Assembly: GCF_006265115.1 (NCBI RefSeq)
Contig: NZ_SMDR01000001.1
Location: 1,612,001-1,676,000 of the forward strand
Source: Arenimonas terrae
Lineage (GTDB): Bacteria > Pseudomonadota > Gammaproteobacteria > Xanthomonadales > Xanthomonadaceae
Reading direction: 5' to 3'
Length of the DNA stretch: 64,000 nucleotides
The first letter of the stretch is position 1. The number at the start of each line of letters is the position of its first letter. Under the pieces are notes generated by a model that saw only the letters and a program-made list of their open reading frames with translations, was not told the origin of the DNA and ran no database searches. A program made the position numbers and the translations under genes. Below, in pieces: positions 54,554-62,263 of this stretch.

Positions 54554-55918
<1,365 letters not shown>

Positions 55919-56131
55919 AGGGCGCTCCGGGTCTGGAGGAACGTCAGCAAGACACATGCCAGTCGCCGGACCCCTGTCGATCCGGCGTTTCCGCGATCAC
56001 CCGGGCCAGGCGCCATGCACTTTGCAGTCCCGGATGTTACGAAACCGTGCATTACGCACGAGCCTGCCGGTCCGCGGCCCGCGCAAGGGATGGTCAGGCG
56101 AGCCGGCCCGGCGCCGGCCGCGCACCCCGGA

Positions 56132-59013: not shown

Positions 59014-59052
59014 CGAACGCCCTCGGGTTCCGCCCCGGGGGCGTTTTGTTTT
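59014..59052 (+). terminator. Terminator after the small ORF
   Basis: AACGCCC/GGGCGTT outer stem (59016-59022 with 59039-59045) followed by TTTTGTTTT. A perfect hairpin GGGAGATCGG/CCGATCTCCC precedes it at about 58980-59004. Confidence 0.7.
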
Positions 59053-59364
59053 GGGCGTTCGCACAGGAAACGAATCGGCGATTCCCTTCCCGCCACGAAG
59101 CACCCGGACCGGCGGTCCGAGGTAACGGCGAGATCCGCAAGACGGCGCTGGCAGCGCTGTGCCTGGGTGCTTCGGCACGGGCGGAGACGGAAGGAAAACG
59201 CGAACAGATCGGATCGAAGGATCCGGACGATTTGCCGCCGGGCGACCGGCGGCAAAAACGAAGCGGGAACATCGGACGTCGAAGCGGATCGGGCTCAAAC
59301 CCCCGACCGGAACGCGCGGCTCTGCCGTGGCGTTTGCCTCGACCTCGCGCGCCCGCTTCGTCAA

Positions 59365-59431
59365 GGCGATTGCTCACTGGAGAGAGCAGCGGGAAACCGC
59401 ATGAGGCCGGTTCGATTCCGACTCGCCACCA
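59365..59431 (+). ncRNA. tRNA-like RNA 1, with D and T arms and encoded CCA but no anticodon arm
   Basis: A 67-nt element reading as a cloverleaf. A 5-bp acceptor stem GGCGA/TCGCC ends in ACCA. The D-arm is GCTC with loop ACTGGAGA and GAGC. The T-arm is GCCGG, TTCGATT, CCGAC with one C-A mismatch. In place of the anticodon arm is a short hairpin GCGG-GAAA-CCGC with a GNRA tetraloop. It lacks an anticodon, so it cannot decode. It directly abuts a second tRNA-like element upstream of slipin and rtcB. Confidence 0.6.
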
Positions 59432-59500
59432 CTGGATAGCTCAGTCGGGTAGAGCACAGCGCGTTAAACGCTGGTGTCGCGGGTTCGATTCCCGCTCCAC
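59432..59500 (+). ncRNA. tRNA-like RNA 2, with anticodon-type loop CGTTAAA
   Basis: A 69-nt element with D-arm (GCTC, AGTCGGGTA, GAGC), anticodon arm CAGCG-CGTTAAA-CGCTG, variable GTGTC and T-arm GCGGG-TTCGATT-CCCGC. The D and T arms match normal tRNAs. The acceptor stem pairs only CTGGA/TCCAC (4 of 5) with no CCA. Position 33 is G where U is nearly universal, so it is unlikely to be a functional decoder. The GUUAA in the loop recalls tRNA-Asn. It follows tRNA-like element 1 with no spacer. A decayed tRNA is the alternative. Confidence 0.55.
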
Positions 59501-59869
59501 ATCTGCTTGTAAAGGCAGCTGGTGATGCAACACCGGGCGCAAGCCCAAGGGACACGCCCCGCGCGTGCCGTCGCAACGGCCAGCCCATCGGCCGGCGCAA
59601 CGTCACGCACGCCGCCCGCACCGGGCGGCCGCCTTCGCCAGGCGCCGGGACGCGCGGAACGCCACGCACGCGGGCCAGGACGGCCAGCGCGCGTGGCGCA
59701 AAGCGCCGACCGCCGCCACGCGCACGCGGCCGACTCCGTGCGGGTCCGGCGCAGGGGCGTGCCCACTTTTTCCGGAGCGACCGCTCCGAACACGACGCGC
59801 GCGGACGACCCGCCGCCGCGGCGCGAACCGATAACCGGGTCGAACCATCAACGAATCAAGGAGGACGCG

Positions 59870-60988
59870 ATGTTGATGATCCGTAAGGTCGTGGTCGGCG
59901 ATGCCGAGCGCGCCCTCGTATACAAGAACCGCCGGTTCCAGCGAGTGCTGGGCCCGGGCGTGTACCGCCTCTGGGGTTTCGGCCTGCAGGTGACCGTGCA
60001 CGACCTGGCCACCGCCGAATACACCGGCAAGGACATCGAGGCGCTGGTGCAGGCCCTGGGCGCGACGCTGGCGGAAACCTTCCAGCTGGTCGACCTGGGT
60101 ATGCAGGAGATCGGCCTGGTGCACAAGCAGGGCAAGCTGGTGGATGTGCTGGCGCCGGGCAGCCGCAAGCTGTACTGGAAGGGCCTGACGCAGATCGACG
60201 TGCAGCGCATCGCGCTGTCCGACGGCCTCGAGGTCGACGCCGGCACCGCCCACCGCCTGCGCCAGCTCAACGTGCTCGACAAGCTGGCGGTGGCCGTGAC
60301 GGTGCCGTCGGAGTCCGCGGGTCTGCTGTTCGTCGACGGCAAGTTCGTGCGCGTTCTGGCGCCCGGTGCGGCCGCGTTCTGGAACGTCCGCAAGAACGTC
60401 GCGGTAGATGTGGTGGACCTGCGCGTGCAGGCGATGGAGGTCTCGGGCCAGGAACTGCTGACCCGCGACAAGGTGTCGCTGCGCGTGAACCTGGCGGCCA
60501 GCCTGCGCGTGACCGACCCGGTCGCCGCACGCAGCAAGGTCGCCAAGTACGCCGACCAGGTCTACCGCGAACTGCAGTACGGCCTGCGCAAGGCGGTCTC
60601 CGCCAAGTCGCTGGACGAACTGCTGGGCGACAAGGCCTCGCTGGACGCGGACATCTTCGCGTACGTGCGCGGCCAGGTGACCGGTTTCGGCGTCGAGGTG
60701 ATCGGCGTCGGCATCAAGGACGTGATCCTGCCCGGTGAGATGAAGGACATCCTCAACGGCGTGGTGCAGGCGGAGAAGGCGGCCCAGGCCAACGTCATCC
60801 GCCGTCGCGAGGAGGCGAACGCCACGCGTTCCCTGCTCAACACCGCGCGCCTGGTGGAGGAGAGCCCCACGCTCATGCGCCTCAAGGAACTCGAGGCGCT
60901 GGAGAAGGTCACCGAGAAGATCGACAAGCTCACCGTGTTCGGCGGCCTGGACGGCGTGCTGAAGCAGCTGGTGACGTTGAAGCAGTAA
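59870..60988 (+). CDS. Slipin, SPFH/Band 7 family protein (372 aa)
   Basis: A stomatin-like protein. The N-terminus has MLMIRKVVVGDAERALVYKN, then SPFH motifs (VLAPGSRKLYWKGL, VRVNLAASLRVTDP variants, VEVIGVGIKDVILP) and the C-terminal coiled coil VQAEKAAQANVIRRREEANA. It has no transmembrane helix at the N-terminus, unlike many stomatins. AAGGAGG lies 5 bases upstream of the ATG; the longer in-frame stretch from 59522 runs through hairpin DNA and is rejected. It is followed after 54 bases by rtcB, and a Band 7-RtcB pairing recurs in bacterial RNA-repair clusters. Confidence 0.9.
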   Translation: MLMIRKVVVGDAERALVYKNRRFQRVLGPGVYRLWGFGLQVTVHDLATAEYTGKDIEALVQALGATLAETFQLVDLGMQEIGLVHKQGKLVDVLAPGSRKLYWKGLTQIDVQRIALSDGLEVDAGTAHRLRQLNVLDKLAVAVTVPSESAGLLFVDGKFVRVLAPGAAAFWNVRKNVAVDVVDLRVQAMEVSGQELLTRDKVSLRVNLAASLRVTDPVAARSKVAKYADQVYRELQYGLRKAVSAKSLDELLGDKASLDADIFAYVRGQVTGFGVEVIGVGIKDVILPGEMKDILNGVVQAEKAAQANVIRRREEANATRSLLNTARLVEESPTLMRLKELEALEKVTEKIDKLTVFGGLDGVLKQLVTLKQ

Positions 60989-61042: not shown

Positions 61043-62263
61043 ATGAACGGACACAACTACGAACTGCTGCACGCCGAAGGCAGCCCGACCCCGATCAAGG
61101 GCTGGGTGAAGGGCGTGCCGCTGGACGAGGGCGCGCACCGCCAGCTGCAGAACATCGCCGGCATTCCCTTCGTGGGGCCGTGGGTGGCGGTGATGCCCGA
61201 CGTGCACCTGGGCAAGGGCGCGACCGTGGGCTCGGTGATCCCGACCCGTGGCGCGATCATCCCGGCGGCGGTCGGCGTCGACATCGGCTGCGGCATGGCC
61301 GCGGTGCGGACCACGCTGCGCGCCGACCAGCTGCCCGACGACCTGGCGCCGATCCGCGCCTCGCTCGAGCGCGCCATCCCGGTCGGCAACGGCCGCGGCG
61401 GCGAGCACTGGAAGATCCCGGACAGCATCGGCACGCGGCTGGTGGACTCGGGGCTGGAGGCGCGGCTGCAGGCGATCCGCGCCAGGCACCCGAAGATCCG
61501 TCCCGACAAGCTGGACAAGCAGCTGGGCACGCTCGGCGGCGGCAACCACTTCATCGAACTCTGCCTCGACGAGGCCGACCAGGTGTGGGTGATGCTGCAT
61601 TCGGGTTCGCGCGGCACCGGCAACCTGATCGGCACCTACTTCATCGAGCTGGCGCGCCGCCAGCTGGAGAAGCGCGTGCTCGGTTTCCACCTGCCCGACC
61701 AGGACCTGGCCTTCTTCATGGAGGGCGAGCCGCTGTTTGAGGACTACGTGGACGCGGTGTCGTGGGCGCAGGACTACGCGCGCCACAACCGCGAGGCGAT
61801 GATGTCGCGGGTGCTGCACGACCTGCGGCACAAGCTGCCGAAGTTCCAGCTGGAGAAGATGGCGGTCAATTGCCACCACAACTATGTCAACCGCGAGACG
61901 CACTTCGGCGAGGAGCTGCTGGTGACCCGCAAGGGCGCTGTCAGTGCCCGCGCCGGAGAGCTGGGCATCATCCCGGGAAGCATGGGCACGCGCAGTTACA
62001 TCGTGCGTGGCAAGGGCGATGCCGACAGTTTCCACAGCTGCAGCCACGGTGCCGGCCGCGTGATGAGCCGGACCCAGGCCAAGCAGCAGATCACGCTCAA
62101 GCAGCACCGGGAGGCGACCGCCCACGTCGAATGCCGCAAGGACGCCGGCGTGGTGGACGAATCCCCGGCCGCCTACAAGTCCATCGACGCGGTCATGGCC
62201 GCGCAGTCGGACCTGGTGGAGGTCGTGCACACGCTGCGCCAGGTGGTCTGCATCAAGGGCTGA
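61043..62263 (+). CDS. rtcB: RtcB RNA-splicing ligase (406 aa)
   Basis: It joins RNA 2',3'-cyclic phosphate and 5'-OH ends using GTP and Mn2+, repairing or splicing broken RNAs. Active-site features are VGVDIGCGM with the metal-binding Cys at about 83, LGGGNHFIEL and HSGSRGTGN for metal and nucleotide, and HSCSHGAGRVMSR with the guanylylated His at about 335. Length and motifs match full-length bacterial RtcB. Neither archease nor RtcA is encoded nearby, and no RtcR-type regulator. It lies downstream of slipin and two tRNA-like elements, likely repair substrates or products. Confidence 0.96.
   Translation: MNGHNYELLHAEGSPTPIKGWVKGVPLDEGAHRQLQNIAGIPFVGPWVAVMPDVHLGKGATVGSVIPTRGAIIPAAVGVDIGCGMAAVRTTLRADQLPDDLAPIRASLERAIPVGNGRGGEHWKIPDSIGTRLVDSGLEARLQAIRARHPKIRPDKLDKQLGTLGGGNHFIELCLDEADQVWVMLHSGSRGTGNLIGTYFIELARRQLEKRVLGFHLPDQDLAFFMEGEPLFEDYVDAVSWAQDYARHNREAMMSRVLHDLRHKLPKFQLEKMAVNCHHNYVNRETHFGEELLVTRKGAVSARAGELGIIPGSMGTRSYIVRGKGDADSFHSCSHGAGRVMSRTQAKQQITLKQHREATAHVECRKDAGVVDESPAAYKSIDAVMAAQSDLVEVVHTLRQVVCIKG

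Follow-up and report, generated by a model that had tools for sequence, protein, structure and literature searches.

What is a tRNA-like element with a short acceptor and an aberrant anticodon loop doing in front of an operon that encodes a slipin and the RNA ligase RtcB? The element was analysed in a window of 64,000 nt from Arenimonas terrae (the whole stretch of DNA presented here) and in related loci. A sequence-only reading had described the segment 59432-59500 as tRNA-like yet no ordinary tRNA, joined without spacer to a first such element, and had proposed a decoy or nuclease target mimicking tRNA-Asn and connected with RtcB.

Two tRNA-like elements in the slipin-rtcB leader

The sole Rfam match that cmscan returned for the window was to the tRNA family RF00005, at 45.6 bits against a gathering score of 29, and no Rfam family besides tRNA matched above cut-off in these 64 kb. 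It delimited a cloverleaf, hereafter element 2, whose ends agree to within one base with the segment singled out earlier (Table 1). ARAGORN called zero tRNAs in the window. The cloverleaf was the minimum-energy structure of element 2 folded by itself, and its folding energy was ordinary against shuffled sequences (z -0.85), so that it is the conservation and covariation seen in relatives that argue against chance.

Element 2 thus scores as a tRNA and shares the cloverleaf with canonical tRNA genes, but it differs from them in having a 4-bp instead of a 7-bp acceptor, no CCA end, G33 instead of U33 and an anticodon that is not fixed in evolution. The first description had correctly recognized the loop CGTTAAA with its G33 and the poor acceptor, as well as the tandem arrangement, element 1 ending in ACCA at 59431. 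In element 1, the anticodon stem is capped by a GNRA tetraloop (GAAA, 59393-59396) that replaces the anticodon loop. With a normal anticodon loop missing from element 1 and a complete acceptor from element 2, decoding by the pair is very unlikely.

Table 1. Features of the slipin-rtcB leader and operon (window positions).
Feature	Position	Strand	Description	Basis or occurrence
Intrinsic terminator of upstream gene	59015-59046	+	13-bp stem and T tract; separates that gene from the leader	
Upstream hairpin P0	59289-59306	+	TCGGG/CCCGA	Relatives: usually ACGGG/CCCGT, often with a variable 7-nt loop
Conserved leader block	59307-59338	+	CCGGAACGCGCGGCTCTGCCGTGGCGTTTGCC, ~30 nt	Near-invariant across 18 loci; kept in A. 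composti too
tRNA-like element 1	59365-59431	+	5-bp acceptor, ends ACCA	Fold; compensatory pairs in acceptor, anticodon and T stems
tRNA-like element 2	59433-59499	+	4-bp acceptor, without CCA	RF00005 45.6 bits; covariation
Element 2 acceptor	59433-59436/59496-59499		TGGA/TCCA, 4 bp	
Element 2 D stem	59439-59442/59452-59455			
Element 2 anticodon stem	59457-59461/59469-59473		CAGCG/CGCTG	
Element 2 loop (loop 2)	59462-59468	+	CGTTAAA: C32 G33 U34 U35 A36 A37 A38	Hypervariable, anticodon-like
Element 2 T arm	59479-59495			
Third hairpin	59503-59518	+	CTGC-TTGTAAAG-GCAG	Degenerate form of relatives' 7-nt anticodon-stem-loop-like hairpin
Fourth hairpin	59535-59546	+	GGGC-GCAA-GCCC (GNRA loop)	Conserved in relatives
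Slipin/SPFH (Band_7) gene	59870-60988	+		PF01145, E 4e-30
rtcB RNA ligase gene	61043-62263	+	Only rtcB of the genome	PF01139, E 5e-126

The pair is accompanied by further conserved features in the leader. The block at 59307-59338 may be a promoter or an RNA structure, and a possible long-range helix closing the leader (~59312 with ~59560) had about 84% of its cells paired, with covariation that was not convincing. The suspected link to RtcB is supported by the slipin-rtcB operon that follows and by the presence of rtcB downstream of the pair in 38 of 39 long loci.

Conservation and distribution of the pair

In the host's family, about 40 of 149 genomes gave the pair in a DNA search. Twenty-nine pairs were aligned to build a covariance model, which detected the arrangement in at least 132 of 395 family genomes. 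Because this model gives ordinary tandem tRNAs up to ~104 bits, weaker matches were accepted only with an adjoining slipin. In the 29-pair alignment, 97.8% of base-pair cells were kept and 19 of the 37 pairs exhibited two-sided (compensatory) changes, including 6/6 in the acceptor and 4/4 in the anticodon stem of element 1 and 5/5 in the anticodon stem of element 2. The observed covariation was reached by 0 of 500 shuffles, and structures slid along the alignment dropped to 30-48% paired cells. The D and T arms were nearly invariant across relatives.

The association with the slipin was close to complete. Among 144 loci (about 10 of them retrieved via the slipin itself), the slipin lay on the same strand 194-673 nt 3' of the pair in 142, and the remaining two end at contig ends. 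Retrieval by the slipin yielded 80 named genomes (Lysobacter, Luteimonas, Xanthomonas, Pseudoxanthomonas, Rhodanobacter, Dyella, Solimonas, and others), and the RNA was found upstream in 76 of the 77 with sufficient upstream DNA. The single exception, A. composti, has kept slipin and rtcB and lost both cloverleafs; the loop is therefore dispensable there. Ahead of its slipin-rtcB genes, element 2 is reduced to its T arm (CGCGGGTTCGAATCCCGCTCCA), and the conserved block farther upstream persists (locus L225:2160-2205); the terminator structure of the upstream gene is the same as in the window. Within the genus, the presence of the pair was sporadic.

Outside the family, slipin homologues with 40-73% identity were preceded by tandem tRNA-like elements in most proteobacterial loci and in some beyond the class. 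Three-element tRNA-like arrays instead of two also occurred near slipins there (L120, L080). The slipin leaders of E. coli carry a T arm only; in its slipin-nucleotidyltransferase operon, a sigma-54-like promoter stands with this lone T-arm-like hairpin (L217:3690-3860), and in Citrobacter RtcR is divergent from the slipin-nucleotidyltransferase operon (L218). A phage origin was rejected, zero slipin homologues being found among 50,697 phage records. We conclude with high confidence that the element is a conserved, non-decoding tRNA-like RNA. Annotations should be read with caution, as ARAGORN labels the elements of many relatives as tRNAs with arbitrary anticodons.

A variable anticodon-like loop on a fixed body

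Loop 2 was highly diverse: the 144 loci contained 90 distinct sequences, 3-8 nt long, with 35 anticodons. Among the 7-nt loops, position 33 was U in 57%, C in 26%, G in 13%, and A in 4%; a pyrimidine occupied position 32 in 89%, and A occupied position 37 in 90%. The significance attributed earlier to G33 as such was not upheld, since this position varies among loci and the nearest relative, A. daejeonensis (slipin 94% identical to that of the window), carries CTGTGAA, with U33, on the same stem. The proposed specific mimicry of tRNA-Asn did not survive either: CGTTAAA is absent from the 41 host tRNA loops that were read, and we rejected an exact tRNA-Asn decoy, the host tRNA-Asn loop being CTGTTAA. 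Some relatives do have this exact loop.

Comparison of 32 phylogenetically independent sister pairs indicated how fast the loop changes. The share of differing sites was 26.4% in loop 2 and 37.5% in the anticodon; in the leader it was 8.1%, in the upstream region 6.6%, and at slipin four-fold sites 7.7% (Wilcoxon p 4e-5 and 2e-4). The other parts of the tRNA-like fold differed at 11.5% (D loop), 5.8% (T loop), 0 (D stem), and 0.6% (T stem) of sites. Loop 2 was unlike between sisters in 24 of the 32 pairs and changed length in 5. Positions 32 and 37 evolved at 0.08, equal to background, and positions 33-36 at 0.29-0.50. Loop 2 thus evolves 3-5 times faster than its surroundings with the tRNA-like positions 32 and 37 kept, although the four-fold and leader sites used as reference may themselves be constrained, so that "faster than neutral" is not strictly proven. 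Judged from these sequence comparisons, the pattern is unlike that of filler free of any constraint and suggests that the anticodon itself is under diversifying selection.

The loops also resemble real tRNA loops more often than expected. Nine of 67 distinct loop 2 sequences were identical to a host tRNA loop against 1.9 expected with positions 32 and 37 fixed, an excess that can in part come from tRNA ancestry. However, 43% of the 7-nt loops lack U33 and so do not reproduce an anticodon loop faithfully. A bait for ordinary anticodon nucleases might be expected to retain U33, a point against that role. A kissing interaction of loop 2 with another part of the leader was rejected, as reverse-complement words were no commoner than after loop swaps between loci. 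In one genus, the alleles TCCGTAA and TCCTGAT alternated among close relatives with no intermediates, as if swapped as blocks (L202, L204, L206, L207, L212-L214, L216, L062, L067).

Most relatives have a further anticodon-like loop downstream of element 2, in the form of a 5-6-bp stem, varying by matched changes, with a 7-nt loop. This third-hairpin loop began with C-U in 112 of 136 cases, usually with A at position 37, and its sequences CTGTCAC (39) and CTTTCAC (29) are the exact anticodon loops of host tRNA-Asp and tRNA-Glu. In total, 83 of 136 were identical to some host tRNA loop, against 0.7 expected after letter shuffling (the loci are not independent). These loops varied moderately, at 14% in sister pairs.

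Known relatives and possible roles

Burroughs and Aravind (NAR 2016) reportedly described RtcB-type repair systems in which SPFH/Band-7 modules are paired with a cognate "novel tRNA-like molecule". The likeness lies in a tRNA-like RNA encoded together with Band-7 and RtcB, and here too a Band_7/SPFH gene adjoins the element and RtcB belongs to the same operon. This kind of RNA has thus reportedly been noted before; the hypervariable loop, the tetraloop-capped element 1 and the Asp/Glu-type hairpin appear to be newly added, and we know of no previous description of these three features. Our literature search found nothing that combines RtcB, a slipin/SPFH protein and a tandem tRNA-like RNA, nor a description of the RNA itself.

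The bacterial Y RNA YrlA is likewise a tRNA-mimicking RNA of an RtcB operon (rsr-yrlBA-rtcBA; PMC7790460). However, its partner Ro60/TROVE is absent here (PF05731, no match in the host genome) and the leader carries two full cloverleafs; with the YrlA model RF02553 scoring 21.1 bits against a gathering score of 69, membership in the YrlA/Ro60 system was rejected. The RtcR-controlled rtcBA operon of E. coli and Salmonella (PMC7790460) shares the tRNA repair ligase RtcB but differs in that a slipin replaces Rsr here. Control by RtcR and sigma-54 was rejected for our locus, the genome being without RtcR (PF06956, no match) and a search of the leader for a sigma-54 site finding none. Elsewhere in the window, an exact match to the sigma-54 -24/-12 consensus lies at 55946-55961 on the minus strand, at the start of an NtrC-type response regulator gene (54554-55957). 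A study of P. aeruginosa SPFH proteins places PaFlo8 in the rtc locus and leaves tRNA unmentioned (PMC13086221).

What could the pair then be doing? A functional tRNA, or an ochre suppressor reading UUA, would agree with the Rfam score of element 2 and with the ARAGORN calls, under various anticodons, in many relatives, but the 4-bp acceptor without CCA, G33, the 35 different anticodons, the missing anticodon loop of element 1 and the broad set of regular tRNAs in the host make this extremely improbable. Decaying tRNA pseudogenes would account for the truncated acceptor, the missing CCA and the sporadic presence in the genus; this reading is excluded by the covariation, for practical purposes, and would not explain the invariance of the arms in numerous genera and outside the family, or the slipin that always follows. 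A cis-regulatory leader, in which the pair and the later hairpins would govern the expression of slipin and rtcB, perhaps in response to RtcB or an enzyme that cuts tRNA acting on the leader, deserves more attention: the pair is everywhere 0.2-0.7 kb upstream of the slipin on the same strand, several conserved hairpins lie in between, and another sensor is needed as the genome has no RtcR. We nevertheless consider it improbable, because a hypervariable loop is unusual in a regulator, the leader is long and its continuity with slipin in one transcript putative, and the possible closing helix gave no clear covariation.

The main rival is a scaffold or guide RNA, in which the pair would serve the slipin as its cognate RNA, much as Y RNA serves Ro60, with only the elbow important and the exposed loop drifting as filler. 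The invariance of the D and T arms next to a varying loop speaks for it, as does the T arm retained alone upstream of the slipin in A. composti and E. coli, which may therefore be the minimal recognised part. Yet pure drift predicts neither a loop that outpaces leader, upstream and four-fold sites, nor constrained positions 32 and 37 within it, nor an enrichment for real tRNA loops; a scaffold of this form is thus disfavoured, and we regard it as rather unlikely, if less so than the regulatory leader.

A fixed tRNA elbow and a fast-changing anticodon loop beside a repair ligase find their best explanation in contact with enzymes that both bind and cut tRNA, and the RNA is most likely a tRNA mimic that does not decode and is linked to the damage and repair of tRNA. 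The decoy or nuclease-target idea thus keeps some support in its general form, a role around anticodon nucleases being the best fit found, and falls in its specificity for tRNA-Asn. The tandem mimic would be transcribed as the leader of the slipin-rtcB operon, or processed from it; its fixed elbow (D and T arms) would be the part recognised by a partner, either the slipin, RtcB or a tRNA-binding protein, and its variable loop would be engaged in an arms race with tRNA-cutting ribonucleases. The loop could be a bait, with RtcB sensing or resealing the cut, the mimic could be obliged to keep escaping cleavage as a cofactor of the slipin, or the RNA could compete for the nuclease, in the way that competitive inhibition of an anticodon nuclease has been put forward as a possibility for YrlA (PMC7790460). 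As the best explanation overall, a conserved non-decoding tandem mimic with a fixed elbow and a loop facing tRNA-cutting enzymes stands, in our estimation, an even chance of being right. The arms-race mechanism, suggested by the sequence pattern, is tentative and somewhat short of that. It is a more speculative possibility, and on balance an unlikely one, that these operons carry a rapidly diversifying tRNA bait, with a fixed body, a lineage-specific loop and a free Asp/Glu-type stem-loop, that is cut by tRNA-cutting toxins or soaks them up, with RtcB and the slipin resealing or sensing it.

If the loop is indeed a bait, its sequence would be a record of the tRNA-cutting toxins met by each lineage. 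Little is known of what bacterial RtcB acts on in nature, and a dedicated RNA encoded beside the ligase, with the body of a tRNA and a rapidly changing anticodon loop, is a concrete candidate substrate or sensor. With this candidate RNA, the question of what bacterial RtcB repairs, and against what, becomes directly testable.
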